Shown here piece after piece: positions 9,623 to 28,306 of a stretch of DNA of 64,000 nt. This DNA is from Variovorax sp. V93. GTDB taxonomy: Bacteria; Pseudomonadota; Gammaproteobacteria; Burkholderiales; Burkholderiaceae_C. The notes beneath the pieces are model-generated. The model was given only the letters and a program-made list of their open reading frames with translations, made no database searches and was not told the origin of the DNA. The translations under genes and the position numbers were made by a program. The stretch lies in NCBI RefSeq assembly GCF_041154485.1, contig NZ_AP028670.1, forward strand, positions 992,001 to 1,056,000, written 5' to 3'. How positions within the stretch are numbered: the stretch's first letter is position 1; every line of letters starts with the position of its first letter.

Positions 9623-9672
9623 GCGCGGCGCAAGCATCGAAGACACACACACGAACAACGAAGGAGACAGCC

Positions 9673-10926: not shown

Positions 10927-10934
10927 AGAACGCC

Positions 10935-12367: not shown

Positions 12368-13232
12368 AACGGTCATCCAGGGCGTGCTGCTCGGCGGCCT
12401 CTACACGCTGTTCGCGCTCGGCCAGTCGCTGATGTTCGGCGTCATGCGGCTCACCAACACGGCCCAGGGCGACTTCATCATCCTCGGCGCCTTCGCCGTC
12501 ATCGCGGGCGTGTCGGCGGCGGGCGACGCCGCGCCGGGGCTTGTTGCCATGGTCGCGCTCGCGGTGCTGCCGGTGGCCTTCGCGTTCGGCTACGCGCTGC
12601 AGCGCTGCGTGCTCAACGGCACGCTCGGCAAGGACCCGCTGCCTTCGCTCGTCGTCACCTTCGGCTTGTCGGTCGTCATCCAGAACCTGCTGCTCGAACT
12701 GTTCTCGGCCGACCCGCGCGCCATCGAGACCGGCGGGCTCAGCACGCAGGGCGTGGCGCTGGGCGACACGCTTTCGCTCGGTGTGCTGCCGCTTGTCGTG
12801 CTCGCCGTCGCGCTGGTTGCAACGGCCGCGCTGCAATGGCTCTTCGCGCGCACGGCGCTGGGCCGCTCGTTCCGCGCGGTGTCCGACGACCGCGAGATCG
12901 CCGAACTCATGGGCCTGGACGCGAAGAAGGTCTATGCCTTCGCGACCGCCATCGCCTTCGTGCTGATCGCCATCGCCGGTGCGCTGCAGGGCATGCGCAC
13001 CACGGTGTCGCCGTCGGACGGCCCGATGCTGCTGCTGTTCGCCTTCGAGGCCGTGATCATCGGCGGCATGGGCTCGTTCTGGGGCACGCTGGCCGGCGCG
13101 ATGATCCTGGGCATCACGCAGCAGGTCGGTTTCCGGCTCGATCCGGGCTGGGGCATCTGGTTCGGCCACATCGTGTTCCTGGTCGTTCTGGTGCTGCGGC
13201 CACAGGGCCTCTTTCCGAAGACACGTGGATGA
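12360..13232 (+). CDS. livH: ABC transporter permease, LivH type
   Basis: A 290-residue, very hydrophobic membrane protein with about eight predicted membrane segments. LivH landmarks are GGLYTLFALGQSLMFGVMRLTN near the start and EAVIIGGMGSFWGTLAGA near the end, the latter being the ATPase-coupling region. It forms the channel with the next gene product, with which it shares a four-base overlap (ATGA at 13229). Confidence 0.9.
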   Translation: MLETVIQGVLLGGLYTLFALGQSLMFGVMRLTNTAQGDFIILGAFAVIAGVSAAGDAAPGLVAMVALAVLPVAFAFGYALQRCVLNGTLGKDPLPSLVVTFGLSVVIQNLLLELFSADPRAIETGGLSTQGVALGDTLSLGVLPLVVLAVALVATAALQWLFARTALGRSFRAVSDDREIAELMGLDAKKVYAFATAIAFVLIAIAGALQGMRTTVSPSDGPMLLLFAFEAVIIGGMGSFWGTLAGAMILGITQQVGFRLDPGWGIWFGHIVFLVVLVLRPQGLFPKTRG

Positions 13233-14296
13233 AGCGGATGACGAACATGCCCCCACCCCTCATCGCCGTCGAGCGTGCCACCGCCGCGAGCCGCGTCGCG
13301 CTTGCCGCCGGCATCGCAGTCGTGCTGATCGCCGCCAGCCTGCCCTTCTGGGGCGAGCCGAGCTGGATGCGCGAGTTCGTCGAGATCGCCTGCTACTTCA
13401 TCTTCGCGATGATGTGGAACCTGCTCGCCGGCTACGGCGGCATGGTGAGCATCGGGCAGCAGGCCTTCTTCGGCTTCGGCGGCTACGTGATGCTGATGCT
13501 CGGCGACTTCGCGGACATCAACCCCTTCGTGGCGGTGCCGCTGGGCGCGCTGGCGGCGGGGCTCATCGCCGCGCCCGTATCTTTTGTCGCGTTCCGGCTG
13601 TCGGGCGGCTACTTCGCCATCGGCACCTGGGTGATCGCCGAGGTGTTCCGCCTCAGCTTCGCCAACGTGTCGGCGGTGGGCGGCGGCTCGGGCACCACGC
13701 TCACGGCGCTGCGCGGCATCGAGCGCGCCACGCGCGAAAGAACCACCTACTGGATGGCACTGGCCTGCGTGGTCGCGGCCGTTGCGCTGGTCTACCTGTT
13801 CCTGCGCAGCAAGCACGGGCTCGCGCTGCTGGCCATCCGCGACAACGAGGTGGCCGCGGAGTCGCAGGGCATTCCGGTGGCGCGCATGAAGCTCGCGGTG
13901 TATGTGGTGGCGGCCTTCGGTGCAGGGCTCGCGGGCGCGCTCTACTTTGTCGGCAACCTGCGCATCAGCCCCGACGCAGCCTTCAGCGTCAACTGGACGG
14001 CGTTCGCCATCTTCATGGTGGTGATCGGCGGCATCGGCCGCATCGAGGGGCCGCTGGTGGGCGCGCTCGTCTTCTGGGCGTTGAACAAGTTCCTCAGCGA
14101 CTACGGCACCTGGTACCTGCTCGGGCTCGGGCTGCTGGCCATTGGTGTCACGCTCTTCTTCAAGCAGGGGCTGTGGGGCTGGGCGCAGCAGCGCTGGGCC
14201 TGGTCCCTGTTCCCGACTCAGCGGCGGCTCTTGCCGCCCGCGCTTTCTTCTTCTTCTTCCGACCTGGAGCGGGGCTTCCATGCGAAACATCGATGA
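13229..14296 (+). CDS. livM: ABC transporter permease, LivM type
   Basis: A 355-residue permease with about nine hydrophobic segments. It shows NLLAGYGGMVSIGQQAFFG, a LivM hallmark, and GGIGRIEGPLVGALVFW near the C-terminus. The last 30 residues or so form a polar tail with a run of serines encoded by a TTC repeat. The end overlaps the hydroxyquinol dioxygenase start by 17 bases, tying the transporter to the catabolic operon. Confidence 0.9.
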   Translation: MKRMTNMPPPLIAVERATAASRVALAAGIAVVLIAASLPFWGEPSWMREFVEIACYFIFAMMWNLLAGYGGMVSIGQQAFFGFGGYVMLMLGDFADINPFVAVPLGALAAGLIAAPVSFVAFRLSGGYFAIGTWVIAEVFRLSFANVSAVGGGSGTTLTALRGIERATRERTTYWMALACVVAAVALVYLFLRSKHGLALLAIRDNEVAAESQGIPVARMKLAVYVVAAFGAGLAGALYFVGNLRISPDAAFSVNWTAFAIFMVVIGGIGRIEGPLVGALVFWALNKFLSDYGTWYLLGLGLLAIGVTLFFKQGLWGWAQQRWAWSLFPTQRRLLPPALSSSSSDLERGFHAKHR

Positions 14297-15146
14297 ACAC
14301 ACCATCACCGCCGCCGTGCTCGAACGCATGGCCGGCTGCGAGGACGCGCGCCTGAAGGAAGTGATGTCGGCGCTCGTGCGCCATCTGCACGACTTCGCGC
14401 GCGAGGTGAAGCTGACCGAAGCCGAATGGAGCGCCGGCATCGAGTTCCTGACCGCGACCGGCCAGAAGTGCGATGCGCAGCGCCAGGAGTTCATCCTGCT
14501 GTCGGACACGCTGGGCCTGTCGATGCTGACCGTGGCGATGAACCACGCGAAGAGCCCGCAGGCCACCGAGGCCACCGTGTTCGGCCCCTTCCACGTGGCG
14601 GGCGCGCCGCAGCTGCCGCTGGGCAGCGACATCTCGGGCGGCGCGGCGGGGGAGCCGCTGTTCGTGCAGGCCAGCGTGCGCGGCCGCGGCGGCGAGCCGG
14701 TCGCCGACGCGGTGGTCGATGTCTGGGAGGCCGACACCGAAGGCTTCTACGACGTGCAGCGGCCCGTCGCGCAGCCGCAGGGGCGGGCGGTGCTGCGCAC
14801 CAACGCCGAGGGCCGGCTGTGGTTTCGCGGCGTGGCGCCGGTGGCTTATCCGATCCCGACCGACGGCCCCGTGGGCGCGATGCTGCGCGCGACCCGGCGC
14901 CATCCATGGCGCCCCGCACACGTGCACTTCATGATCCAGGCGCCGGGCTACGAGACGCTGATCACGCACGTCTTCCGCGAGGGCGATCCCTACCTCGACA
15001 GCGACGCGGTGTTCGGCGTGCGCAGTTCGCTGATCGGCGACTTCGTGCCCCATCCCGCGGGCCGTGCGCCCGACGGCAGCCTGCAGGAGGGACCGTTCCA
15101 CACGCTGGAGTTCGCGTTCGTGCTCGAGCCCGCCGGAAGAGGCTGA
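14280..15146 (+). CDS. Hydroxyquinol 1,2-dioxygenase (intradiol)
   Basis: A 288-residue intradiol ring-cleavage enzyme. The N-terminal helical dimerisation domain (TGQKCDAQRQEFILLSDTLGL) is followed by a beta-sandwich. The Fe(III) ligands are visible as Tyr157 (GFYDVQ), Tyr190 (VAYPIP), His214 and His216 (RPAHVHF). The IPTDGPVG stretch after the second tyrosine favours hydroxyquinol over catechol as substrate. It converts 1,2,4-trihydroxybenzene to maleylacetate, the substrate of the reductase at 8555. Last gene of the operon; the ATG at 14280 lies inside the livM end. Confidence 0.88.
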   Translation: MRNIDEHTITAAVLERMAGCEDARLKEVMSALVRHLHDFAREVKLTEAEWSAGIEFLTATGQKCDAQRQEFILLSDTLGLSMLTVAMNHAKSPQATEATVFGPFHVAGAPQLPLGSDISGGAAGEPLFVQASVRGRGGEPVADAVVDVWEADTEGFYDVQRPVAQPQGRAVLRTNAEGRLWFRGVAPVAYPIPTDGPVGAMLRATRRHPWRPAHVHFMIQAPGYETLITHVFREGDPYLDSDAVFGVRSSLIGDFVPHPAGRAPDGSLQEGPFHTLEFAFVLEPAGRG

Positions 15147-15550
15147 GCGGCTGCGGGTGGCTGTCGAGTTTGACTGCCAGGCCAAACACGAAGTCCTTCG
15201 AGATCACCCACTTGCGCGCGAGTCGATCATTGGCGTTGGCAGCGGCGTTTCACCTGGAGTGGAATTTCTCGGGGTTTGCGTCACTAATTTTGGAATTGAG
15301 CGGCTAATTTGCGGACTCGGCACCAGCGTCACAGGTCGTTGTGGTGATGCGATGCCCAACAAGAGGATTGCAATCGGCCAAGAGTCGGCCGTTCATCACA
15401 AATTCTCTGTTTCGCTGTCAACAAGCTTGGCGACGTGCGACCTCATGGTTAAAGTGAGCCGGACGCAAGACATCCATATTGCTGTGCGTGGGGCAGAGGT
15501 TCACGCGGCCTTTGTCATTACATATTTTCCGGCCCAAGGAGAGCCGACCG
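15147..15550. other. Intergenic stretch at operon/island border
   Basis: About 400 bases with no convincing gene. One frame is open through most of it, but it has no recognisable domain and overlaps the well-supported gene at 15551. Base composition drops here from the GC-rich operon to the lower-GC island, so this is the likely left boundary of the accessory region. A weak copy of the GTCGGCC repeat core lies near 15385. Confidence 0.5.
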
Positions 15551-15829
15551 ATGAAACAACAAATTGAACGATTTTCCCCTCACCAGAATGCCAAGGTCTT
15601 CGGCGTCCTGATGGCTGTGAGTTCGCTGATCATCATGCTGCCGTTCTCGCTCCTGCTCTTCGCCGCGGCTCCCACACAAGCTAGACCACCAGCCTTTTTT
15701 CTTCTGCTTGCACCGCTGATGTACTTAGTTATGGGCTACGTCATGGTCGCGGTGGGATGTGCAATCTACAACTTCATGTTCAAGTACATCGGCGGCATCG
15801 AGTTTCAAGCCAAGACCGACGGCGCTTGA
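15551..15829 (+). CDS. Small two-span membrane protein
   Basis: A 92-residue protein with a polar N-terminus (MKQQIERFSPHQNAKVF), two hydrophobic segments (about 17-40 and 47-70) and a C-terminal NFMFKYIGGIEFQ. Layout and the YN-x4-YIGGIE ending resemble small DUF3566-like membrane proteins, but this is a loose match. The ATG at 15551 has a strong AAGGAGA site; an in-frame ATG at 15479 lacks one. Function unknown. Confidence 0.7.
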   Translation: MKQQIERFSPHQNAKVFGVLMAVSSLIIMLPFSLLLFAAAPTQARPPAFFLLLAPLMYLVMGYVMVAVGCAIYNFMFKYIGGIEFQAKTDGA

Positions 15830-16219
15830 GCGCCGTCGGCTACGCAGTCGGCCAAGACCGGCTCGGACAGCAATCGGCCAGAAGCTGCCGCTCGACCGCG
15901 CGGTCCAGTTGGCTAGGAAGCAGACAGTCGGTGCGCTTGCAGATCATGCATTTCACTGAAATAAGACATGCCCGATCGTGACGATGCATGGCCCTTCGAG
16001 GACGCGCCGAGCCGCGTGAATTCTGGCCGCAAAGCTCTGCCCGACGCGTGTCACTGCGGCCGGTAGAGGTCAACATGACATGCCTGTCCGCTTACGAGAT
16101 TCGTCGTCGATGCTTCATGGCGGGGACGGGGGAGCTTTTTTTGCTAGAACCAGCGTTGCTGATTCAGCGCGTGCCAAAAACCAGCGGCGGCCTAGTTTGC
16201 AGTTTTGCTGTTCTTAAAG
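15830..16219. other. Intergenic stretch with repeat copy
   Basis: About 390 bases. It opens with a repeat copy (15832-15860) and a second partial one, then has no gene I can support; short frames here lack a start site or family resemblance. Confidence 0.45.
15832..15860 (+). repeat. Island repeat copy 1
   Basis: GGCTACGCAGTCGGCCA at 15838-15853 is a variant of the island core GGCTACAGTCGGCCA with two extra bases. It follows the stop of the small membrane protein gene, about 360 bases from the next gene. Confidence 0.6.
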
Positions 16220-16993
16220 ATGAAATTCAACCCTGTTAGAACCCGTGAAGTGACTCCAGGCGCTGTGGCGCGAGCACTGCGAACCGAGTACGCATTTGGA
16301 CGACCGATGGGAAATGTTGCGGCATGCGAGCTTAGTGAGTGCATTCGTGCATGGATGGTAGGTTTTCATTCTGAAGTCGCATCTATAGTTCGTCGGAGCA
16401 ATGAATGGCTGGATCGTGCGATCAAAGAAGATGAAAAGTTCGGAGTAAATCCTGATCTTCATCGTGTGACCCTCTATCAGGCCAGGGCACTGGGGGAGTG
16501 GATGGAGACCGGAAGCAATGAGGAGCTCATGTGGAATCGAGCTCACGTCCATGAAGAATCAGCTTGGCGCTACGTGCCAAGCCCCTGGTCGAACAAGGAA
16601 ATTCTGCAGAACGGCTTGGATGATTTCATGGCGTTTGCTTGCCAGAGCGGGAAGCAAAGCGACACGATCGAGGCAGCGATTGCCACATATGAGCGCAGGA
16701 CAGGAAGAAACGAGATTTCACTTAAGAAGTCCCTCAAGCCTCGTGATTTTGGATATGCCAGATGCTTGCACCTCGCGCGGCGGCAGTTTGATCCAGGCGA
16801 CCTGTTCGAGGCCGGTCGGAAGATGCTGCAAGCCCATCTTGAAGAGAAGTGGCTTGGCGGAGGGCAATTCATCAGGGCGGCGACTTGGTTGATGATCGTC
16901 TACTGTGACGATTCAAGTCTAAGTCCGCTTCGGAAAATCCTTTGCGCCTATGACAACATGCCCAGCGTGCACCGTCCTGATTGGTTGGCATAG
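16220..16993 (+). CDS. Uncharacterised protein, possibly Imm49-like immunity protein
   Basis: A 257-residue soluble protein rich in helices and tryptophan. Stretches such as KSLKPRDFGYARCLHLARR and LEEKWLGGGQFIRAATWLMIVY recall Imm49-type immunity proteins of polymorphic toxin systems; this is from memory and tentative. The ATG at 16220 is used; a TTG at 16205 is possible. No clear ribosome-binding site is seen. GC is low: one 60-base line (16381-16440) counts 42% against 72% for a line in the core region (46741-46800). Confidence 0.65.
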   Translation: MKFNPVRTREVTPGAVARALRTEYAFGRPMGNVAACELSECIRAWMVGFHSEVASIVRRSNEWLDRAIKEDEKFGVNPDLHRVTLYQARALGEWMETGSNEELMWNRAHVHEESAWRYVPSPWSNKEILQNGLDDFMAFACQSGKQSDTIEAAIATYERRTGRNEISLKKSLKPRDFGYARCLHLARRQFDPGDLFEAGRKMLQAHLEEKWLGGGQFIRAATWLMIVYCDDSSLSPLRKILCAYDNMPSVHRPDWLA

Positions 16994-17271
16994 CGATTAT
17001 GCGGACTACTACCTGCGCCAAGTGGAGAACAGCGGCTTTTCACAGTTCATTTACAACTAACAGCGGACGACACCTGTCACGCCGCTTCTGCGTGAAGATC
17101 TGGGCTCGATTGGTGCGTATCCCTGCGCCATTCACAAACGACCGCTATTGAGCAAACGAGAGGGCTGCTTAGGTCCCGATGCCGCGGCACAATGATCAGG
17201 ATCAGAAGGCCGAACTCGGCCAGGAGCTGTCCCCGGGCAATCCCGCCTAAACGCATAAATCAGAGGATCAA
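16994..17271. other. Intergenic stretch before unknown gene
   Basis: About 280 bases without a supported gene. A degenerate repeat (GGCCGAACTCGGCCAGGAGC, near 17208-17228) lies about 45 bases before the next start, as at other gene boundaries of the island. Confidence 0.4.
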
Positions 17272-17841
17272 TTGAGCTTTGAACGGCATTGGGAGCGAAG
17301 CAGCCTGTGGGCTGAAGTAAAGGCGTCATTCGAGGTCGCCGCCTTCGGTTTCGACGGTGAGTTGATCGGGACCGGGACGCGGCGACTCGATCAGCTATCG
17401 CCACGGTGGCTGTCTGCCTGCGACGTAATGCTCCGGGAAAATGGGGACGTCTTCCGTAGGTCGCTAGGGACACAACTCAGTCACATAGAGATCCAACTGA
17501 CATCTGCTGATGGCACGGCACTCGGCATGTTCTTTGTGAACGGCACGCTCGCTTTGTCGACCGCGTACTTCCGTGGGGAAAGCGCGTCTACAGAGTCCTC
17601 CGTCATGAGCCTGTTCGTCGACTCTTTGCGCAATATTCCCAGAGTGCAGGAAGCGGCGGAATCGCCGCTTCCCTTTGAGGCCTTGCTGTCCGTCAAAACT
17701 CGACCGCTTGCCGCGCTTGTCTTCTGGGCGCCGAGTGATGTGGACGAAGGTGACCATGAACTTGTGCGGGAGCTTTCGACGCATTTTGCTGGTGCGTATC
17801 TCTGCCGGACGACCAATTCTTCGGGCGCGAAGAAGTCATAG
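17272..17841 (+). CDS. Unknown 189-residue protein
   Basis: I do not recognise this family. The protein is soluble, with mixed strand and helix character (for example FEVAAFGFDGELIGTGTRRLDQL) and no signal peptide or membrane segment. It would start at TTG 17272, supported by AGAGGA four bases upstream; the first in-frame ATG is far inside. It lies in the repeat-separated island, so an accessory role is likely. Confidence 0.6.
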   Translation: MSFERHWERSSLWAEVKASFEVAAFGFDGELIGTGTRRLDQLSPRWLSACDVMLRENGDVFRRSLGTQLSHIEIQLTSADGTALGMFFVNGTLALSTAYFRGESASTESSVMSLFVDSLRNIPRVQEAAESPLPFEALLSVKTRPLAALVFWAPSDVDEGDHELVRELSTHFAGAYLCRTTNSSGAKKS

Positions 17842-17886
17842 AGCACCGTTCGCGAGTCCACTTGGGAACGTCGCGAACGGTCGCTC

Positions 17887-17935
17887 GGGCCCTTTGCTCC
17901 GACCGTGCGCGGGGCTCCAGTCGGCCAATAGCAGC
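17887..17935 (+). repeat. Island repeat copy 2
   Basis: GGGCCCTTTGCTCCGACC (17887-17904) followed by GGCTCCAGTCGGCCA (17913-17927). In the phase of the next start codon it reads GPFAPTVRGAPVGQ and then meets a TAG. It lies 40 bases before the zinc-ribbon gene. Confidence 0.8.
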
Positions 17936-17967
17936 CTCTCGCCGTCATCAACCAAACTGAGAGTTTT

Positions 17968-18234
17968 ATGCCTTCTTCGCCGCCAGCAGCGAACACATGC
18001 CCTCGATGTCACAGCGATGCGCAAGTCAAGGCGAAGCTTGTTCTCATCGGAAGAGCTAGTCCACGCCTGCTGTTTCCCGATGAGGAGCGAGCCGGCTATA
18101 GGCGGCGTGACCAGTTGGCCATCGACGAGTGCAGCACCGAGAACCTGCAGAAGGCGCCCTTGCAGCAGTTCGTGCCTGGGTTCTACTGCCATGCCTGCGG
18201 TGTCGGCTTTGTTGCCAACAGCATATTGAAGTGA
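17968..18234 (+). CDS. Small zinc-ribbon protein
   Basis: An 88-residue protein with two CxxC knuckles, Cys11/Cys14 (TCPRCHSD) and Cys74/Cys77 (YCHACGVG), the arrangement of a zinc ribbon. The middle is basic and polar. Function unknown; such proteins often bind nucleic acid or act as small adaptors. Start at ATG 17968, 40 bases after a repeat copy. Confidence 0.72.
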   Translation: MPSSPPAANTCPRCHSDAQVKAKLVLIGRASPRLLFPDEERAGYRRRDQLAIDECSTENLQKAPLQQFVPGFYCHACGVGFVANSILK

Positions 18235-18260
18235 GGCAAAGGCAGTCATGAGCTGCACGA

Positions 18261-18296
18261 TTCGGCCGACTACAGTCGGCCATAACGAGACTTTCC
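18261..18296 (+). repeat. Island repeat copy 3
   Basis: GACTACAGTCGGCCA at 18268-18282; with its left flank it forms the hairpin GCCGACT-AC-AGTCGGC. It ends next to the start codon at 18299 and is in phase with it, reading RPTTVGHNETF. Confidence 0.85.
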
Positions 18297-18298
18297 CG

Positions 18299-18634
18299 AT
18301 GACCATTCAACTGCCAGACGTCTACCGAGTCGTCATCGACACAAATGGATTGTTCGAGGGCTTTGCCGGGACGGCTGACGATGAACAGTACGTCATCCTC
18401 TGGGGCGAAGACGAGGTAGCTACCGCCAACGCCGAGATGGAAGTCGACGTGTACGCTCCGGGCTTCGTGGCGTTCGCCGGGAACGGTGGCGGCGAAATCT
18501 ATGCCTTCAACGAAGTTGGCGCCGTCTTCATGCTGCCGATGATTGGAATGGAGCCAGGCGCGGCAATCAAATTGGCTGCTGACTTTCTCGAATTTGCGCG
18601 GGGTTTTCAGCGGGAACCCGCACCCGGCAAGTGA
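18299..18634 (+). CDS. SMI1/KNR4 (SUKH)-like protein
   Basis: A 111-residue protein whose body matches the C-terminal half of SMI1/KNR4 domains: YAPGFVAFAGNGGGEIYAFN, then PMIGMEPGAAIKLAADFLEF. SUKH-superfamily proteins are often immunity proteins for contact-dependent or type VI toxins (family knowledge). The domain is shorter than usual, lacking much of the N-terminal part. The start at 18299 is preferred over 18248 because the extra 17 residues are translated repeat. No toxin gene is adjacent. Confidence 0.75.
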   Translation: MTIQLPDVYRVVIDTNGLFEGFAGTADDEQYVILWGEDEVATANAEMEVDVYAPGFVAFAGNGGGEIYAFNEVGAVFMLPMIGMEPGAAIKLAADFLEFARGFQREPAPGK

Positions 18635-18664
18635 CCGCTTCGGAGCAAAGCGTATTGCCGCAAC

Positions 18665-18720
18665 GGGCCCAAAGCTTCGAGGCTGCGACCGGCTACAGTC
18701 GGCCAGAAGCAGCCGGACAC
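18665..18720 (+). repeat. Island repeat copy 4
   Basis: Contains GGGCCCAAAGC near 18665 and the exact core GGCTACAGTCGGCCA at 18691-18705, then GAAGCAGCCGGAC. It is in phase with the start at 18770 with no stop between (RPATVGQKQ...). Confidence 0.85.
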
Positions 18721-18769
18721 CGGCGATGCAGAATCGCGTCACACCTCACACCGTAGAACGATAGGCATC

Positions 18770-19411
18770 ATGGGAAAGATTGTTTCAATTCCAAATTGGG
18801 CCGCGCCTGCCCTTCAAGGTCTTGCGTATTGGCTGGGATCGCAACACTCCCTTGGCCTCGCTAGCAACATCAGCGAAGGCGCAATCACTTGGGAGCTGAT
18901 GCGCCAGTTGTTTACACACCGAATGCCGGAGCGTCATCTGGAAGCAGAAGTCTTTTATCGCCACATTCCTGAGTTCCGATCAGCAGAAGTGCAAGACAGA
19001 TCTCGCGAGCGCGCCGATCTAATAATTGCTCGCAAGGCTCGCGCAAATCGGGCAACGCCGTACGCTACGGGTGATGTGGAGGCAGTCGTTGAAGTGAAGC
19101 ACAGCCGCTCACGCAAAGATCTAGTTTGGCAAGACATTGACTACCTGGCCGAACGACGAAAAAAGGATCCGGCAGTGCGTGCGTTCTTGATCTACGCAAC
19201 CATTAACGAACGTCCGCCTGACTTCACGAATTCGGACGGTGCTGCAATTACTCCTCGCAGCCGCGAAACACCGAAGGGCAACAAGTACCGGGTGCGGCGA
19301 GTCTGCCGCGCCAGCAAAATCATTCCCGCCAATAACAAAAGTGCGAGTGGGCACTACGCTGTGCTGATCGAGGTAGCCCCGCCCAAGAGTGCTGCGGAAA
19401 ATGACGCCTAA
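18770..19411 (+). CDS. Putative PD-(D/E)XK nuclease-like protein
   Basis: A 213-residue protein. The segment ERADLIIARK (Asp83) followed about 25 residues later by EAVVEVKHSR (Glu108, Lys110) has the D-x(n)-E-x-K spacing of PD-(D/E)XK nucleases, and the helix WQDIDYLAERRKKDP follows as in restriction-like folds. It may be a nuclease or an inactive relative; there is no partner methylase. The Ser/Arg/Lys-rich C-terminus could contact DNA. It lies between two repeat copies. Confidence 0.62.
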   Translation: MGKIVSIPNWAAPALQGLAYWLGSQHSLGLASNISEGAITWELMRQLFTHRMPERHLEAEVFYRHIPEFRSAEVQDRSRERADLIIARKARANRATPYATGDVEAVVEVKHSRSRKDLVWQDIDYLAERRKKDPAVRAFLIYATINERPPDFTNSDGAAITPRSRETPKGNKYRVRRVCRASKIIPANNKSASGHYAVLIEVAPPKSAAENDA

Positions 19412-19472
19412 CCGCCCCAAGCTCATGTGAAAGATCGAGCGTCTGCTATTAGGTCTGAGCTACTTCCGCTTG

Positions 19473-19528
19473 GGGCCCGCTCATGACAGCGTCGCGACCG
19501 GCTACAGGTCGGACAAAGCTCTGCTTTC
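19473..19528 (+). repeat. Island repeat copy 5
   Basis: GGGGCCCGCTC then GCGACCGGCTACAGGTCGGAC; the core (19500-19514) has one inserted G. It precedes the lipoprotein gene at 19559 but, unlike most copies, is out of phase with it. Confidence 0.75.
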
Positions 19529-19558
19529 GTTGAAGTCAAAAAATTAACGCTTGCCCCA

Positions 19559-20188
19559 ATGAACTTCCGAATTTCCTCTTCAAAGCGCAGAACTCTATTC
19601 GGTTTCTTCCTTTTAATCACCATTTTGGCACTCGATGCGTGCACTACTCAAATTTCCGCGTTGAAGGCAACTACGGAACATTCAGCAATGTTTCCGAAGG
19701 CTCCGTATGTCTATGGTGATGCGGGCACTACCCTACGGGTCGCGACAAGAACGACGCTTTTGCCTGGCACCTACAGACCACTTGGTTCGAACGAGCAGGG
19801 GCTTTGGTATGTCGGCGCGGAAAGCAACGTGCGCGTCTTCTATACCGAGAAGAAGAGAAGTGATGGGAAAAGGCTCCTTGCAAGCTATACAGGGGGCATT
19901 CTTGTACCTCCTAAGCTCGATAGCCTTCCCGCCGTTTTTATCATTCCTTCCACCGAGAGACTGGCGCTTGTTTCAGATTCGGCGGAAATCGAGGCCATGG
20001 AGTCTGGGAACATAACTGAGGGTCAGATGCATGCAGAGGCTGCTACCAACGTGGGGGTAAATCCTATTGGAGCGACCGTGGGTGGCATCATTGCGGACGG
20101 CCTCCTCGCTTACGACGCGAAAGGTCTGAGGGTGATTCCTCAGACAGCGGGTGCGCCAGGACTTGTGGCCTGGTTGGAAGGACGCTAG
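19559..20188 (+). CDS. Predicted lipoprotein of unknown function
   Basis: A 209-residue protein with a type II signal peptide: basic start (SSSKRR), hydrophobic core, lipobox LDAC with Cys28. The mature part is mostly beta-type, without a family I recognise; GATVGGIIADGLL near the end is glycine-rich and could insert in or pack against a membrane. Probably membrane-anchored on the periplasmic side. Start ATG 19559. Confidence 0.65.
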   Translation: MNFRISSSKRRTLFGFFLLITILALDACTTQISALKATTEHSAMFPKAPYVYGDAGTTLRVATRTTLLPGTYRPLGSNEQGLWYVGAESNVRVFYTEKKRSDGKRLLASYTGGILVPPKLDSLPAVFIIPSTERLALVSDSAEIEAMESGNITEGQMHAEAATNVGVNPIGATVGGIIADGLLAYDAKGLRVIPQTAGAPGLVAWLEGR

Positions 20189-20335
20189 ATCATCGGTCAG
20201 GTCGCGCGCGGAGGTACTGGCACTTGATGCCGACGAGTCACGGTGATTTGTGCACGTAGGGCGGCTTGGCTTCTAGTCGGCTCCTCCACAGGTGGTTGAA
20301 GAAGGTCTGCTTTCGAGCAGCGGCAACGACGCCTT

Positions 20336-20388
20336 CGGGCCCTTTGCACCGACAGCCCGTCCGGCTACAGTCGGCCACAACCAGACAC
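20336..20388 (+). repeat. Island repeat copy 6
   Basis: CGGGCCCTTTGCACCG, then the exact core GGCTACAGTCGGCCA (20363-20377). In phase with the downstream gene it reads GPFAPTARPATVGHNQTL. Confidence 0.87.
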
Positions 20389-20402
20389 TGGGGGACACGT
20401 TC

Positions 20403-21026
20403 GTGCGTTCATTGAATGAATTGCTGGAGATCCGAGAGCCAGCAATGGCGCTTGTTGAGCAATGGGCTCGGGAGGCCGAACTCCCCGTTGAGATACTGCC
20501 TCCTTCCACAAGCAGCGGCGATGTCCTCGTTGAACTTCAGGTGACCACCCGGTCGGTGCTCGGAGCCGTGGCATACGGGACGGGTGGCATATTGATAGAC
20601 GGGGGATGGTTACGGATGCTTGGCTCGGGACACCCCAGGTTGACTCGCAACATTGCGGCTTGGAACGCAGAGCGGTCGAACGGGTTTTGTCTTGTGGCAG
20701 ATGATGCGGTCGGCGGCTTCTTCGCGCTCAATGGCGGCGCTTTCGGTGACGACCAAGGGGTTGTTTACTACCTCGCACCGGACACGCTCAAGTGGGAGAG
20801 CCTGGGAATTGGTCATGCTGCTTTCACACAATGGGCGTTTACCAAACGCCTCCACACCTTTTACGATCAGATGCGCTGGGTCGGATGGGAGCGTGAGGTG
20901 AGCAACCTACCTGGGGACCAGTGCTTCAACTTCTACCCTTTCCTCCATACGGAGCAGGGCTCGACGCAGAGTAGCTCACGGCGTCCAGTCCCGATCTCCG
21001 AGCAATACGCACTCAACACCGAATAA
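20403..21026 (+). CDS. DUF2625-family protein
   Basis: A 207-residue protein with the DUF2625 pattern: LQVTTRSVLGAVAYGTGGILIDGGWLR is the centre, followed by LVADDAVGGFFALNGGAFG and YYLAPDTLKWESLG. The function of the family is not established. The GTG at 20403 is chosen because it fits the family N-terminus (VRSLNELLE) and follows a GGGGG stretch; the frame is open to 20292, but that extra part is translated repeat. Length agrees with the family. Confidence 0.78.
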   Translation: MRSLNELLEIREPAMALVEQWAREAELPVEILPPSTSSGDVLVELQVTTRSVLGAVAYGTGGILIDGGWLRMLGSGHPRLTRNIAAWNAERSNGFCLVADDAVGGFFALNGGAFGDDQGVVYYLAPDTLKWESLGIGHAAFTQWAFTKRLHTFYDQMRWVGWEREVSNLPGDQCFNFYPFLHTEQGSTQSSSRRPVPISEQYALNTE

Positions 21027-21030
21027 ATTG

Positions 21031-21070
21031 TCGCGACCGGCTACAGTCGGCCAGCACCGGTCTTTCGCCC
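21031..21070 (+). repeat. Island repeat copy 7
   Basis: GCGACCGGCTACAGTCGGCCAG; exact core at 21039-21053. It is in phase with the gene at 21124 and reads RPATVGQHRSF. It begins within 10 bases of the previous stop codon. Confidence 0.87.
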
Positions 21071-21123
21071 GACGGGCACAACTCAGCCAGAACCGGACGC
21101 TCAACTCATTGACTCACCAGCCT

Positions 21124-21468
21124 ATGAATGATGACCTGATAGAACAACTGGTCCAGTGGCAGCGAAGGCTTAGTGAGGCGCTGCTGCAGCGTTACCCCGA
21201 GGTGCAAGGCAATAGATGGCTCCTCGGCGTTCAGATAGCTGAGGATCTCGAAGTTCAGGGTGAGCGTTGGGCAGCCCAGAAGCACGGATCTGGCGTGGTC
21301 TTCACCCGGCAAGCTCCAGCGCCCCACTTGGTCGTCGATATGCACACGGCGGTCAGCGACCCGGAGGTAACCGATCCTTGGCGAGTACAGCAATTCGCCG
21401 AATCGAAGGGTCAGCCTTTGAGTTATGACGAAGCCGAATCGCTACTTCGCCGATCATCAGTGGGCTGA
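21124..21468 (+). CDS. Unknown small protein, possibly DUF6896-like
   Basis: A 114-residue acidic protein with an N-terminal helical part (LVQWQRRLSEALLQRYPEV) and a segment LVVDMHTAVSDPEVTDPWRVQQF reminiscent of DUF6896 proteins; this is a weak call from memory. The ATG at 21124 is preferred over 21028, whose extra residues come from the repeat. The stop lies inside the next, degenerate repeat copy. Confidence 0.55.
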   Translation: MNDDLIEQLVQWQRRLSEALLQRYPEVQGNRWLLGVQIAEDLEVQGERWAAQKHGSGVVFTRQAPAPHLVVDMHTAVSDPEVTDPWRVQQFAESKGQPLSYDEAESLLRRSSVG

Positions 21469-21490
21469 CAGCCCTCGGCCACAAGCAGAC
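21463..21490 (+). repeat. Island repeat copy 8 (degenerate)
   Basis: GGCTGACAGCCCTCGGCCACAAGCAGAC; the left half is diverged. It is in phase with the start at 21504 (TALGHKQ, compare ATVGHNQ) and overlaps the previous stop codon. Confidence 0.6.
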
Positions 21491-21503
21491 CTACTACCGA
21501 CAC

Positions 21504-22214
21504 ATGCACCTCGACGGAAAACTGAATCGCATCAGTCGCGACGGATACGAACGCACTCTCGAAGTCGTCGTCGATGGTTGGGCCGTTTATTGGATTGGGG
21601 CCATCGAGTTCGAAGAGAACAATCGAGAAGTTGAGCGTTTCGTGGAGGGAGGTGAATTTTCCTCTCAGATCAAGGTTCAATTTGCCACCGAGATCCGTCC
21701 GCAAGTTGCTTCAGTGCGCCACTCGTTTGCGCAACCTATCGCTTCGTCGCCCCACTGCCAGATCGCTACCACCGTTCTCGATAGTCCCGACGCCTACAGC
21801 TTCCGTTGTTCAATCTCAGAAGGCGGGCCGGCTATCCTTGTCGAAACGGAAAAGGCTCACTCCTTAAAAATGGGGGAAGTCATCGAGTTTGCCGGTGAAC
21901 TCGCGCTACTTGAAATCGACGACCGAACGTCTGCTTTGGAGAATGACCGAGGACTGCTTTGGGCCCTAAGCTGTCCTACGGTTTTCTCAGAAGCCGTCGT
22001 TCCAGTGACGGGACCTACGCCAGCTTCAGCGCGACTCGATTGGCTTGCTCCAAGGCCAGCGCCTCAGGGTCTTTGTCGCGCCACCTTTGATGCAACTGTG
22101 AATACGTGGAATGCCAGTCGCGATTCGGAAGATTGGCCAAGAGGCCAAGGAGCTTCTCCACTTCTGAGATGGCATCGAGCTTGGCCAACTCATGTGACCG
22201 GAGAACCTCGATAA
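21504..22214 (+). CDS. Unknown protein, 3' end probably lost
   Basis: The first 170 residues or so look like a real soluble protein (EVVVDGWAVYWIGAIEFEENNREV and similar strands). From about 22015 the frame runs antisense through the DUF4304-like gene, and the last 66 residues have a different, Trp/Arg/Pro-rich composition. This suggests the true end was deleted when two oppositely oriented island segments were joined. No family recognised. Confidence 0.45.
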   Translation: MHLDGKLNRISRDGYERTLEVVVDGWAVYWIGAIEFEENNREVERFVEGGEFSSQIKVQFATEIRPQVASVRHSFAQPIASSPHCQIATTVLDSPDAYSFRCSISEGGPAILVETEKAHSLKMGEVIEFAGELALLEIDDRTSALENDRGLLWALSCPTVFSEAVVPVTGPTPASARLDWLAPRPAPQGLCRATFDATVNTWNASRDSEDWPRGQGASPLLRWHRAWPTHVTGEPR

Positions 22215-22509
22215 CCTGCTGCATGCCGTTCGCCGCGCTCTCGGGCGTCGCCATGTTCCATGCTCGCCCGTTGGCTATTCGGGACCCATGCGGGTCCATG
22301 TAGCCGTCGACGGGCCCGAAGGGTAACGATGCACAAAGGACGACGCATGTTCTCTTGCTCCCTCCAGAGCCATTGGCATCAACCCACAGTTGCTGAAACA
22401 CGTCGCTCCGTTGCCGCACGAACTTGCGAGGCGTCACCTTTTGAAAGCCCTCGTTCTTCAAGAATGGCCATAGAGTCGTCGTTATCGCGTGGGTGAGTGC
22501 GTCTGCCAT
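22015..22509 (-). CDS. DUF4304-like protein
   Basis: A 164-residue protein beginning MADALTHAITTTLWPFLKNEGFQKV, followed by RKFVRQRSDVFQQLWVDA. This is the layout of DUF4304-type proteins (helix, then GFxK and an F-x-R strand). Function unknown. It is the first left-facing gene of the island; a reversed repeat copy lies just upstream of its start, on its own strand. Confidence 0.6.
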   Translation of the reverse strand: MADALTHAITTTLWPFLKNEGFQKVTPRKFVRQRSDVFQQLWVDANGSGGSKRTCVVLCASLPFGPVDGYMDPHGSRIANGRAWNMATPESAANGMQQVIEVLRSHELAKLDAISEVEKLLGLLANLPNRDWHSTYSQLHQRWRDKDPEALALEQANRVALKLA

Positions 22510-22536
22510 TTCAGATTTTTTGGTCAGGCTTCAAGG

Positions 22537-22580
22537 AACTGCAGAAGTCCGCTGTTGACCGACTGTAGCCTCTACGATCG
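22537..22580 (-). repeat. Island repeat copy 9 (reversed)
   Basis: On the minus strand this reads GGCTACAGTCGGTCAACAGC, core 22555-22569. It is upstream of, and in phase with, the DUF4304-like start (ATVGQQRT, then a TGA before the ATG). Confidence 0.82.
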
Positions 22581-22657
22581 AGATAGCCGCCAACGGTCTT
22601 CTGGCCGCTACCGGCGACAGAAAACAACGCCTCGTCCTGTCTGGCATCCCTTACTCG

Positions 22658-22912
22658 TCATTTGTCGCTGCTCCTTCCTGCCAACCACATAGCAGCTGTG
22701 GCAATACAGGTAACGCCAAGGACGGCGAAAAGGAGGTTGCGAAGCTCAGAAGAGCTAACAGGAAAATGGAGCACCCCGTGGACTGCCCAGCGTATCAAAG
22801 GCATGGCAACCAGCGCGCTCAAGGAAAACCCAACGCCAATCATGAAAAGGAAGGTCAGGAACAAAGTACCCAACCTTCTAAGGCCTGATTTACTTGGTTC
22901 AATCATCCACAA
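22658..22912 (-). CDS. Small two-span membrane protein
   Basis: An 84-residue protein with two hydrophobic segments (about 14-38 and 56-78) and short polar ends (MWMIEPSKSGLRR; GRSSDK). No family recognised. A short inverted repeat, GGCGGC-TTTTG-GCCGCC (22954-22970), lies upstream on its strand and belongs to the same GC-rich repeat surroundings. Confidence 0.5.
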   Translation of the reverse strand: MWMIEPSKSGLRRLGTLFLTFLFMIGVGFSLSALVAMPLIRWAVHGVLHFPVSSSELRNLLFAVLGVTCIATAAMWLAGRSSDK

Positions 22913-23068
22913 TCTCTAGTTCGGATCTGCTTGGTGGGCTGGCGATTCAGAAGGCGGCTTTTGGCCGCCTGTCGAACTTGCGGAGCAGGACGGTCGAGCA
23001 GCTTGCCAGCATCACCGGTAGAGATTCGCCTCAACTGAGGAGGGTCAGCCGCGATCGAACGCAACTCG

Positions 23069-23734
23069 CTAGGACGACCTCACGGGCCCAAAGATTTGGC
23101 CGCCGACGAGGGGACCCCAAGCATAGGCATATTGGTCCGCGGCTGCCTCAACTTCCTTGGAGTTCGCCTTGCTCCACATACGGGTGTACCAATCCACGTG
23201 GTGCCCGACCTCGTGGCATAGCAGGTGCTCAAGATAGAAGCGACGCAGTCCTGCCATTTCGAAAGAAATCGACCAAGAGTCCCGCATTGGCCGCAGCACA
23301 CCTCCGTATCGAATGAAGTGTGCAACGTCGCCTCGTGGGGGCTGTCGTTTTCCCAAGGGTAAGACGCCATCTGCAGGCCAAGCGTACAGAACAACTACGC
23401 GCACGCCACTGCCACAAATGAACTCCGCGAGCGATTCATCTGGCCCTCCATGGCGACGCGCACGCTTCCGCAGCCAGATATGAGTGATGCCCTCGCGGTG
23501 CTGTGCCGGCAGACGCTCCAGCGCCGCTGCTACTTCTTCTACGCTGACTGGAAACACATAGTCGCGCGAAGGATTGTCCTGCAAGAGCACGGGCAGGCGT
23601 TGCCCGTCGACAGGGCGTTGCAGCGAGTGCGCGCGAGCAAAGATGTTGTCAGTCAACCTCCGGCGAGTTCGGCCGCCGTACAGGTCGTCATAGGTTCGAC
23701 TCTTCTTCCAAGGAGTTGTGGAACGCCGCGTCAT
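23069..23734 (-). CDS. Putative zinc metallopeptidase-like protein (HExxH)
   Basis: A 221-residue protein with HEVGHHVDWY (HExxH at residues 174-178), followed by KEVEAAADQYAYAWG, where a Glu about 18-20 residues later could be the third zinc ligand as in gluzincin-like enzymes. No signal peptide. The family is unknown to me; a peptidase or toxin domain role is possible. Start ATG 23734 has no strong ribosome-binding site; a reversed repeat copy lies upstream. Confidence 0.6.
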   Translation of the reverse strand: MTRRSTTPWKKSRTYDDLYGGRTRRRLTDNIFARAHSLQRPVDGQRLPVLLQDNPSRDYVFPVSVEEVAAALERLPAQHREGITHIWLRKRARRHGGPDESLAEFICGSGVRVVVLYAWPADGVLPLGKRQPPRGDVAHFIRYGGVLRPMRDSWSISFEMAGLRRFYLEHLLCHEVGHHVDWYTRMWSKANSKEVEAAADQYAYAWGPLVGGQIFGPVRSS

Positions 23735-23758
23735 GTGGCCTATCGCCTGAGTTCAAGT

Positions 23759-23838
23759 GGCCGAATTCTGCCGCAACTGCGAAAGTCCGGTCTTGGCCGA
23801 CTGTAGCCTCACGCCGGGCCGGAGCAAAGGGCCCAAAG
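23759..23838 (-). repeat. Island repeat copy 10 (reversed, longest)
   Basis: On the minus strand: GGGCCCTTTGCTCCGGCC, then GGCTACAGTCGGCCA (23794-23808), then GACTTTCGCAGTTGCGG and GAATTCGGCC. It reads GPFAPARREATVGQDRTF but is out of phase with the metallopeptidase start. This copy shows the full extent of the element, about 80 bases. Confidence 0.85.
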
Positions 23839-23953
23839 CCGTCGCCCACGCGATGTTCCTCACACCCGCGCGGAGTACAGGCCAGAGCGCTGCAGGAAGC
23901 GCCAACGAAACCGTACTTGCGCCCGACCGCCCGGAGCCCAGACGTGCTCCGGC

Positions 23954-24409
23954 CTACTTGGGCTGTGCGGCCTGGGGAGTGTTCCGAAAGCTGATCGCCA
24001 TCCGGTTGTAGGTGTTCATCACGCCGATCGCGATGGTGAGGTCCACCAGTTCGCGCTCGTCGAAGACCCTCCTTGCGGCTTGGAAGTCCGCATCGGGCAC
24101 GCCCGAATCGGCAACGCGCGTCACCGACTCCGCCCAAGCCAGGCCTGCCTGCTCACGAGGATCGAACAGGTCGCCGGCCTCGCGCCAGGCCTGCAGCAGC
24201 GCAAGCTTTTCCACGGGCACGCCCTTCTTCAAAAGGTCCCGCGTGTGCATGTCAAGGCAGTATGCGCAGTTGTTGATCTGCGAGACACGCAGGTACACGA
24301 GATCGACGAGGACGGGTGAAAGGCTGCTCTGGGCGACGTAGCCGTAGACGGCGCCGAGCGCCTTGATGCCAGCGGGGGCGAATTGGTTGTAGTCGAGACG
24401 TTGGCTCAT
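23954..24409 (-). CDS. AhpD-like carboxymuconolactone decarboxylase-family protein
   Basis: A 151-residue protein of the alkylhydroperoxidase D core type, with the redox motif Cys48-AY-Cys51 and His55 (NCAYCLDMH). It probably reduces peroxides or disulfides in the cytoplasm. The ATG at 24409 overlaps the end of the cupin gene, so the two are co-translated. The frame is open further upstream, but that part is antisense or out of frame to the cupin. Confidence 0.82.
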   Translation of the reverse strand: MSQRLDYNQFAPAGIKALGAVYGYVAQSSLSPVLVDLVYLRVSQINNCAYCLDMHTRDLLKKGVPVEKLALLQAWREAGDLFDPREQAGLAWAESVTRVADSGVPDADFQAARRVFDERELVDLTIAIGVMNTYNRMAISFRNTPQAAQPK

Positions 24410-24857
24410 TGCTTCTTCTCCATGGATTCGGATTCGGCTGCAGGGGTGGTCAGCGGAGAGTCCCCGGTGTCCGTCACAAAGACCGCCAGCAGCTTCGCGG
24501 GCTTCATCCTGCTGGCATTGCGGCTGACGGTGTGCCGCGCGCCAGGTGGCTCGTAGAAACTCTCGCCGGCGCGCAGGAACTGCTTCGGCCCGTCGTTCAC
24601 CTGCGACTCGATGGAACCCGAAACCACATAGGCGTAGATGAATGCGGACTTCGCATGCATGTGGGCGGGCGAGGCGGCCCCCGGCGGATAGTCGACCACG
24701 ACCGCGGTCAGCGACTTGCCGGGAATATTGGGGATGGCCTGTTGAAGCGCGGGGGTGACTTTCTCGCTCTGCTCGTGCGCCGCCGCGGCAGCACACAAGA
24801 GGCCGGCCGAGGCTGCTGCAACCAGGCTGGCAGCGAGCCGTGAGTTGTTGTGTTCAT
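24406..24857 (-). pseudogene. Secreted cupin protein with frameshift at its start
   Basis: The cupin domain is clear (PPGAASPAHMHAKSAFIYAYVVSGSIESQ, then EPPGARHTV) and lies in one frame from about 24846 down to 24406. That frame begins with a good signal peptide core (SRLAASLVAAASAGLL, then an Ala run) but has no ATG, GTG or TTG before it. The only well-placed start, ATG 24857 with AAGGAGA before it, is one base out of frame. A one-base loss near 24843-24855, or a sequencing error, would explain this. The frame from TTG 24798 gives 130 residues without a full signal. Function unknown. Confidence 0.6.
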
Positions 24858-24998
24858 GTGGGTTCTCCTTGGTGAAACGGTGAAGGTGCCCCTATAGGGA
24901 TGGCCTTGCCACCGAATGATGGTTGCTCCGCAGCTCCAAGGGAACTGATGTCTTTTCAGCCACGAAATGCACGCCGTGCACTTCGGCGGCGGCGCTTA

Positions 24999-25979
24999 CT
25001 AGCCGAGCGATTCCTCGGCGGCACGGGCCATCTTTGCCACCATGTCGAGCAACCACACGTGCGCGGCCTCGTGCTCGTCGCGGCGATGCCAGACCGTGCG
25101 AATGGTGGAAGTTCCGGCCTGATAAGGCGGTTGCCGACGCAGCAGATCGCGGTCCTTCACGAGCGCCACTGCAAGCGAGGCGGGGACGATGGACAGCATG
25201 TCAGTGTCACGAAGGAGTTCGGGTATCGCCAGGGAGTGCGGCACTGTGACGCGCGCATGTGGCGCTTCCTGTTCCGCCTGGAGCGCCTCTTCGAGCGCTT
25301 GCCGGTCGAACATTTCCGACTGGCGTGCGAGGCCGCGCTCCAGAATGAATCCGCCGACGGCGCCTTCTTCCTGGCCGCCGACGGAAACGGTCACAAGCGG
25401 GTACTTGGCCATGTCACGCAGCGTGAGCTTCCGGCGTGACGCGGGATGACCGCGCCGCATCAAAATGGCCTCGCCTTGCGACATCAGCGTGCGCGAGTTC
25501 AATCGGTCGGGCACATGCGCGAAGATGCCGATAGCGAGATCGATCCGCCCCAGGTCGATCTGCTCCGCAAGGTCAAGCCGCGTGGAGGGCCGAATCACCA
25601 GCTCCACGCGGGGGGCGACGTGCTGAAGCTCGCGCGAGAGCGGTGCAATGATCACCGAGGTCAGATGATCGTTCGCGGCAATGACAAAGCGACGGGACGA
25701 CTCTGCCGGAGCGAAGGGCTCGACACCGAGGGTTGTCTCGATTCGACGCAGGGCATCGCGCAGAGCCGGGGCCATGGCTGCAGCCCGCCCGGTAGGAACC
25801 ATTCCCTTGCCCGTTCGCATGAACAATTCGTCGCCGACCAGCTCGCGCAGCCTTCCGAGCGCGTGGCTTACCGCAGATTGGGTGAGATTGAGCCGCTTGC
25901 CCGCGAGGACCAGATTGCGCTCCTCGTAGACGGCATCGAACACCTTCAGCAGGTTCAGGTCCATTCGGCCAATGCTCAT
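24999..25979 (-). CDS. LysR-family regulator of the nitroaromatic-like cluster
   Basis: A 326-residue LysR protein of the NodD/LinR-like group: HTH in residues 6-65 (RNLVLAGKRLNLTQSAVSHALGRLRE) and an effector domain. The ATG at 25979 fits the family start MDLNLLKVFDAVYEE; longer frames are unsupported. It is divergent from the hydroxylaminobenzoate-lyase-like gene, 112 bases away, and so probably controls it. Confidence 0.88.
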   Translation of the reverse strand: MSIGRMDLNLLKVFDAVYEERNLVLAGKRLNLTQSAVSHALGRLRELVGDELFMRTGKGMVPTGRAAAMAPALRDALRRIETTLGVEPFAPAESSRRFVIAANDHLTSVIIAPLSRELQHVAPRVELVIRPSTRLDLAEQIDLGRIDLAIGIFAHVPDRLNSRTLMSQGEAILMRRGHPASRRKLTLRDMAKYPLVTVSVGGQEEGAVGGFILERGLARQSEMFDRQALEEALQAEQEAPHARVTVPHSLAIPELLRDTDMLSIVPASLAVALVKDRDLLRRQPPYQAGTSTIRTVWHRRDEHEAAHVWLLDMVAKMARAAEESLG

Positions 25980-28049: not shown

Positions 28050-28306
28050 ACTGCCGGTCGAGAGCTAGCGCCTTCTACGGCCGCTGCTCAACTCAGGCTC
28101 CAGCCATAGTCCGTCAAGAGCTCGAGGCCAAGGACATCTTGGTAGAACGCCCGGGCCCTACCTGGGCGGAGCGCCTCGAAATTGGCGACTATCCGTAAAC
28201 TTGCAACATCGTTCTTCTTTCTGCTGTCGAGGATGGTGCTGCTTTGCTTCAACCGGAGGGGTGACCCCAACGGCGGCTTCTGGCCGAATTCTGCCTCCGC
28301 CTACAC
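28050..28306. other. Junction region with gene remnant and repeat piece
   Basis: Holds a truncated VOC gene on the minus strand (28088-28270) and, next to it, GGCGGCTTCTGGCCGAATTCTG (28272-28293), a piece of the island repeat family in reverse orientation. No intact gene. Confidence 0.6.
28088..28270 (-). pseudogene. Truncated glyoxalase/VOC-family gene
   Basis: Only the first beta-alpha unit of a VOC (glyoxalase/bleomycin-resistance) protein remains: VANFEALRPGRARAFYQDVLGLELL, then a stop after about 60 residues. Normal family members have 115-150 residues. It lies at the border between the nitroaromatic cluster and a second stretch of island-like genes and was probably cut by recombination. 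Confidence 0.6.

Follow-up and report, generated by a model that had tools for sequence, protein, structure and literature searches.

The textbook way for bacteria to acquire single genes and rearrange them is the integron, through which resistance genes spread. By function, integrons and dif modules are the systems closest to the subject of this study, an array of short genes with a directional repeat between them, which spans positions 15,838-23,834 of a 64,000-nucleotide stretch of Variovorax sp. V93 DNA (hereafter the window; C2:992001-1056000 of genome G000, 6.74 Mb in two contigs). In dif modules the orientation of the sites alternates (C/D, D/C). According to the available text of PMC6449649, these modules (pdif) have 28-bp sites (11+6+11) for XerC/XerD, and the authors call them a feature of Acinetobacter. 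As far as that text goes, they resemble our locus in that accessory genes lie between short duplex sites recognised by a tyrosine recombinase and are shuffled as modules; our locus differs by another site with a constant core, by co-oriented sites, by a dedicated-looking integrase and by its occurrence in Burkholderiales and Pseudomonas. For the xerC-mcr-10 region of Enterobacteriaceae plasmids, mobilisation of an acquired gene by the product of the neighbouring tyrosine recombinase gene has been proposed (available text of PMC7067168 and PMC9431528); in the former text the authors did not identify the sites. The integron-like elements in rulB of Pseudomonas likewise combine tyrosine recombinase genes with variable genes, but in the available text of PMC4542609 there are three larger recombinases (385, 525 and 535 aa), insertion is into rulB, and no single-gene array is described.

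Our reading of the island in the window, which we hold to be probable, is that it consists of single-gene cassettes, arranged in an array and mobilised by site-specific recombination at the core TCGGCCA, with a small tyrosine recombinase as the most likely enzyme. Strains appear to exchange these genes singly, as in integrons but at a different site, and the very small recombinase probably differs from the integron enzyme. Like integrons, the arrays consist mostly of single genes in the same orientation with one site per gene, their site type is tied to the lineage, cassettes are reordered, integrase and first site are divergent at some loci, and there are arrays without an integrase. Unlike in integrons, no protein exceeded the 265-bit cut-off of the integron integrase model (IntI, TIGR02249) in the 16 genomes searched; the small integrase scored 18.5 bits, and partial matches in G020 reached 97 bits. 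The R''/R' signature of the classic attC site (RYYYAAC / GTTRRRY ends) was present near 1 of 565 distinct sites compared with 12 of 3000 random positions, so the repeat was rejected as an attC site. Among the six copies that were folded (as DNA, one strand), no hairpin and no excess of structure over shuffled sequences was found (z-scores -1.15 to 0.93). Differences from integrons also include an integrase of ~207 aa without N-terminal domain, facing arrays, several entry loci per genome and, in many loci, sites on both sides of the integrase.

A profile built from 137 copies gave the constant, directional part of the repeat as GGCTACAG followed by TCGGCCAnnAsCgGACnTTCG. A general pattern, TCGGCCANNANCNGNCNTTCG, matched the window 25 times with up to 3 mismatches, compared with 4.04 (sd 2.01) matches expected; none of 100 shuffles reached 25, and 13 of the matches fell within 15,874-23,800. 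The signal of a narrower 15-mer, GGCTACAGTCGGCCA, was weaker (8 matches with up to 3 mismatches, 2.78 expected, equalled in 3 of 100 shuffles). A profile of the right half found 12 sites of at least 12 bits in the island, nine on the + strand followed by three on the - strand, which makes the strand switch near 22 kb real. Two further, degenerate cores were recognised by eye at 15,838-15,854 and 19,500-19,515. The preliminary description of this DNA, made from the sequence alone, had seen a repeat array that inverts together with its genes near 22.0 kb, and both points hold. Its 80-base element, however, shrinks to a constant portion of ~28 nt (core plus right arm) next to a variable left half. 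A GGGCCC left part, described as frequent, was borne out in part: of the 159 type A sites (GGCTACAG and near variants), 67 had a GGSCC motif at this position, compared with 4.4% of random positions. That the repeat always lies 5' of a short gene was too strict. The longest forward open reading frame (ORF) began no more than 100 nt from the site in 316 of 442 site-to-site units, and the site is equally 3' of the previous gene.

Beyond the window, the 21-nt right-half profile was run on both strands of 62 loci (1.02 Mb) that were mostly chosen around pattern matches in relatives. It found 643 sites of at least 12 bits, whereas ~26 would be expected by chance from the 19 sites in 1.5 Mb of third-order Markov sequence (one strand). 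A search of the genome and its relatives had been proposed as a check; the window's own genome has a second array (C2:1,170-1,179 kb, locus L031). The array with the most sites, L100, holds 30 sites of at least 12 bits in 19 kb, 17 forward and then 13 reverse. Neighbouring sites (at least 15 bits, at most 2.5 kb apart) were on the same strand in 446 of 478 cases, with 24 convergent and 8 divergent among the 32 switches; alternation as in dif modules was thus not found. A 24-base pattern was present in 67 of 100 genomes of the genus (reversed control 0), and a looser pattern matched 40 of 250 genomes of the family, mostly with one or two copies. Since its reversed control matched 15, part of these family-level matches is due to chance; the GGCTACAG left half is largely of Variovorax type. 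Coupled palindromic arms were rejected for the Variovorax sites, with no excess over column composition for any axis. Single Pseudomonas sites are near-perfect palindromes and scored on both strands (L265 11361-11402). Several draft contigs (L083, L085, L086, L096, L150) start or end in or near arrays, so that arrays may be under-counted in short-read assemblies.

The 442 units had a median length of 550 nt, and their longest ORF was forward in 380. In an all-against-all comparison we obtained 223 shared stretches (at least 80% identity over at least 150 nt), whose ends were tallied after removal of 29 that came within 30 nt of the end of a locus and of 3 in loci without site. Of the 422 5' ends, 186 lay no more than 20 nt from a site, compared with 5% of random array points, and 102 of these 186 borders fell on the T or C of TCGGCCA (offset 0 or +1). 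Of the 438 3' ends, 166 lay as close, including 38 at +6, where TCGGCCA ends. Clustering of the units at 80% identity or more gave 385 clusters, 43 of which span two or more genomes. For the 70 pairs within clusters, scored only where the neighbour was present in both members, the upstream neighbour was different in 39 of 40 and the downstream neighbour in 33 of 34 cases. Near-identical units also recur inside one genome, for example in L087 and L088, 3.5 Mb apart. The DUF2625 unit of the window (20,371-21,047) was found in G080 (96%), G061 (95%), G014 (85%) and G082 (77%); in G080 and G061 (95-96% DNA identity) the homology begins in the core.

The comparison with G083, a genome of the same species, provided the unit-wise variation between strains that had been suggested as a check of the idea of single genes being collected or shuffled with the repeat as exchange unit, and this idea is supported. 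The left flank (13,000-15,859) matched G083 locus L315 with 97.5% identity up through GGCTACGCAGTCGGCCA, past which G083 carries other cassettes with five sites, the junction included. On the right, 99.6% identity began at 23,824; beyond this match G083 has other genes, and no site of at least 12 bits was found in L316. The GGGCCC palindrome, which lies ~26 nt left of many cores, also occurs at this right border (window 23824-23834; L316 8808) and is possibly a second boundary motif. The window unit 17,921-18,282 sits in a different array in G083 (96% identity), where, in L086, it is one unit away from the counterpart of L031 unit 9,632-10,230. This latter unit and unit 10,230-13,030 are adjacent in L031, whereas G083 has them on separate contigs (L086, L084).

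In five other genomes of the genus the left-flank match stopped at 15,130-15,136. Several array starts are marked by the left half GAATGGGTACTA, usually after a conserved stretch, and an entry 19-mer (up to 2 mismatches) occurs in 35 of 100 genomes, though not always beside an array. In all six genome pairs with a common chromosomal flank the homology stopped 5-21 nt past the core T and the DNA beyond differed; the core itself is degenerate in 2 of 12 entry loci (G083, G020). A break of the shared flank at the core fits insertion at a fixed place. We also considered the ends GAATGGGTACTA plus TCGGCCA as inverted repeats of a transposon, a reading set aside because syntenic copies hold different DNA past the core.

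The island has a GC content of 56.8%, its flanks of 69.4% and 68.5%. A Pfam family over cut-off was assigned to three of the ten forward ORFs scanned (SUKH, DUF2625 and DUF6896) and to none of the three in the reverse block. The preliminary description had called the genes mostly unknown and lower in GC than the flanks. The features are, from left to right:

15551..15829, + strand: ORF of a small membrane protein of 92 aa, ahead of the first site; belongs to the left flank common with the same-species genome (ORF list).
15838..15854, + strand: island entry site, GGCTACGCAG followed by TCGGCCA; strains diverge directly past it (L315 junction alignment); 24 bits in L315, below 12 bits in the window (degenerate core).
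15865..15894, + strand: second site, GGACAGCAATCGGCCAGAAGC, 26 nt 3' of the first (22 bits; pattern match).
16205..16993, + strand: cassette ORF, 262 aa, no match in the Pfam scan (ORF list).
17216..17236, + strand: weak site (15 bits; 3 mismatches).
17272..17841, + strand: cassette ORF, 189 aa, no match in the Pfam scan (ORF list).
17885..17944, + strand: site with GGGCCC left part (profile and pattern).
17968..18234, + strand: cassette ORF, 88 aa, two CxxC pairs by eye (ORF list); lies in the unit found in a different array in G083.
18268..18296, + strand: site, GACTACAG followed by TCGGCCA (profile, 15-mer match).
18299..18634, + strand: cassette ORF, SMI1/KNR4 (SUKH-1) family (Pfam PF09346, E 5.8e-7, over cut-off).
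18663..18722, + strand: site with GGGCCC left part (profile and pattern).
18770..19411, + strand: cassette ORF, 213 aa, no match in the Pfam and PADLOC scans.
19500..19515, + strand: degenerate site GGCTACAGGTCGGACA, by eye, under the profile threshold.
19559..20188, + strand: cassette ORF, 209 aa, lipoprotein-like N-terminus by eye (ORF list).
20335..20394, + strand: site with GGGCCC left part (profile and pattern).
20403..21026, + strand: cassette ORF, DUF2625 (Pfam PF10946, E 4e-72).
21034..21067, + strand: site (25 bits); second half-copy at 21,075-21,103 (22 bits).
21127..21468, + strand: cassette ORF, DUF6896 (Pfam PF21837, E 5e-10).
21467..21495, + strand: site overlapping the end of the DUF6896 ORF (20 bits).
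21504..22214, + strand: ORF, 236 aa, overlapping the opposite-strand ORF at 22,015 (ORF list).
22015..22509, - strand: cassette ORF, 164 aa, reverse block, no match in the Pfam scan (ORF list).
22542..22570, - strand: site, reverse block (profile, pattern match).
22658..22912, - strand: cassette ORF, 84 aa, membrane-protein-like by eye, no family over cut-off (ORF list).
22948..22976, - strand: weak site (16 bits).
23069..23734, - strand: cassette ORF, 221 aa, no match in the Pfam scan (ORF list).
23776..23834, - strand: terminal site with GGGCCC left part (28 bits).

Isolated sites outside the island (window 28267-28287 and 4588-4608, 22 bits each) may be lone entry sites or chance matches. 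From 326 units with long forward ORFs we drew 70 at random, of which three were removed by hand. In the remaining 67 cassette proteins the scan found 35 Pfam families, none of them in more than 3 proteins, including immunity-type families (SUKH, Imm11), GNAT, glyoxalase and one rifampin ADP-ribosyltransferase family. A defence role was rejected for the cassettes, as PADLOC gave matches to only 15 DrmC models and one MkoB model, each in 1 of the 67 proteins.

A recombination site that separates units is a better description of the repeat than a 5' label of each gene. A cassette would start with TCGGCCA and the right arm (~gaAsCgGACnTTCG), continue with usually one forward gene and end with a left half, which in the window is mostly of the type ...CGACCGGCTACAG. 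The left half of one cassette and the right half of the next would together form the recombination site, and the crossover would take place inside the 7-nt core. In a circular cassette the joined ends would form one full site, and the cassette would be inserted when this site recombines, within TCGGCCA, with an entry site or a different junction. Fixed chromosomal entry sites would supply the left half (in the window GGCTACGCAG at 15,838), and the arrays would have a polarity, running inward and sometimes facing each other. By analogy with other tyrosine recombinases, the arms resemble binding sites flanking a short spacer, a view supported by the palindromic Pseudomonas examples. In relatives, the integrase that may catalyse these steps is either divergent from the first array site, in an attI-like position, or itself a cassette; with sites on both sides it could serve arrays in both directions. 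Arrays without integrase would be the counterpart of integrase-less attC clusters. The window array may be stranded or served in trans, because its own genome has lost or never had the integrase.

The candidate enzyme is a tyrosine recombinase of 207-247 aa that consists of the catalytic domain only and has the PF00589 domain with the R, K, HxxR, H and Y residues. In a PF00589 search of seven genomes, short tyrosine recombinases in or at the arrays of G004, G017, G031 and G038 were over the cut-off. NCBIfam gave matches below its cut-off only, mostly Xer-type. An alignment of 12 sequences showed R58, K86, H155, R158 and Y190 to be invariant and H181 nearly so; we take these residues to be the catalytic ones. 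One copy of 207 aa (L136:2925-3548), placed within an array, has counterparts of 99% identity in G091, G004 and G034. At L088:9985-10713 and L148:4361-5104 the integrase gene and the first site of its own array are divergent. Within the genus this attI-like layout was seen at L088, L148 and L139, a subset of the arrays that does not include the window. Matches to the family, fragments included, occur in 42 of 100 genomes of the genus and in 35 of 300 genomes of the order. The start of the small integrase gene, coding for VGQKxPFK, scores as a site itself (GTCGGCCAGAAG...TTTC; L136 2980 and other integrase genes), which may be a coincidence or an internal site. A different, 290-aa tyrosine recombinase (C5 copy) lies inside a Variovorax array (L323 7736-9814) and partially matches the integron integrase model below the cut-off. 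It was treated as a hitchhiker, because it is followed 3' by a gene that we take to encode an IS91-type transposase.

Outward-facing sites are often found beside the small integrase. Among the named loci, which represent 80 of at least 536 confirmed relatives with near-identical ones retained, an outward-facing site was present within 320 nt upstream of the integrase in 35 of 79 (L216 left out) and downstream in 35 of 74 (short contig ends skipped), with other-strand controls of 3 and 4. Among 30 order-level Burkholderiales loci there was such a site upstream in 11 of 29 and downstream in 11 of 28 (controls 3 and 1). One of them, L328, duplicates the DNA of the named L226; its removal leaves 10 of 28 and 10 of 27. 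The site distances were near-constant in Pseudomonas and Stutzerimonas (about -58 to -88, and mostly +44), and 19 of 23 such loci had half-sites of the type CTAAC|CGGCC on both sides of the integrase. In these genera one and the same flanking DNA adjoined the upstream side of the integrase in one genome but its downstream side in another (1,251 nt at 99.4%; at least 1,509 nt at 99.9%), with homology beginning 9 nt left of CGGCC. An inversion of the integrase unit alone could also explain this swap.

A number of observations weigh against our reading. The sequences show sites, unit borders, unit-wise variation and the position of sites beside the integrase; that recombination takes place, with circles and a polarity, and that this enzyme catalyses it, is inferred. 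The statement of the preliminary description that neither an integrase nor an attC site is seen at the array was correct; for the integrase it holds for the whole window and even extends to the own genome, in which no integrase of the small family was found, but it does not apply to some relatives, which carry one at their arrays. At the genome level there was no association between integrase (matches again include fragments) and GGCTACAG-type cores: 29 of the 100 genomes had both, 13 the integrase only, 38 the core only and 20 neither. More than half of the integrase loci had no site at threshold, and the integrase of a Shigella plasmid (62.8% identical) had none within 9 kb. The most conserved integrase copies are cassettes themselves, as could be expected of cargo no less than of a driver. 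Of the ends of shared stretches, over half lay more than 20 nt from a site, flank synteny being among them. Our reading does not account for the GGSCC motif at the right border with G083, and the left and right arms of Variovorax sites do not covary. A structure model of the integrase had low confidence (mean pLDDT 51.9) and was not used. Finally, the profile was trained on the same arrays in which the sites were counted, 13 of the 79 named loci are from Variovorax and several Pseudomonas loci are near-identical, so that the site and integrase counts are not fully independent.

The alternative that survives best is that another tyrosine recombinase, XerCD or a phage integrase, acts in trans as in dif modules, the small integrase being a frequent cargo. 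It would account for the missing integrase in the window genome and in 38 of the 67 core-bearing genomes as well as for the 99%-identical integrase copies that sit as cassettes inside arrays. We nevertheless regard it as unlikely, since sites flank the integrase at near-fixed positions in distant genera and again in the order-level loci, and since neighbouring sites are co-oriented rather than alternating. Homologous recombination between dispersed short repeats could shuffle genes without a dedicated recombinase, and the repeats are indeed numerous and shared, with some borders reaching 8-9 nt left into the common GGCTACAG. However, 7-28 nt of homology is short for RecA exchange, and units move among sites with differing left halves, as the borders at the T or C of the core show, which renders this mechanism still less probable. 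The arrays resemble an ordinary integron, or a cluster of degenerate attC sites without integrase, in layout, cassette size, gene types and, in some loci, attI-like integrase position, but in view of the missing R''/R' signature and of the lack of an IntI match over cut-off in the 16 genomes searched we consider this explanation very improbable. A regulatory role (promoter, terminator or RNA) for repeats that travel with the genes, for which a single copy per gene on a fixed side would speak, is just as improbable: strain homology breaks within the element, an Rfam scan of 15,000-25,000 gave no match over the gathering score, and the six folded copies did no better than shuffles.

Returning to the cassette array moved at TCGGCCA, we lean towards a broader view, with somewhat less confidence than for the array itself: it would belong to a second gene-cassette capture system whose enzyme and site are independent of integrons, widespread in Proteobacteria and using a duplex site with constant TCGGCCA core. 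Such a system would have been overlooked because annotation gives its integrase no other name than 'site-specific integrase' and because many arrays are without one. Among the matches listed, we found no description of this cassette system in the open-access literature searched, most subscription journals being outside the search.

If true, a system parallel to integrons would explain variable islands of genes that are now listed as unknown. Its own site would provide a search key for cassettes, and the pair of enzyme and site would be directly testable. Relatives of the recombinase, which may or may not move cassettes themselves, occur on 443 plasmid records from many genera, including Escherichia, Klebsiella and Vibrio.

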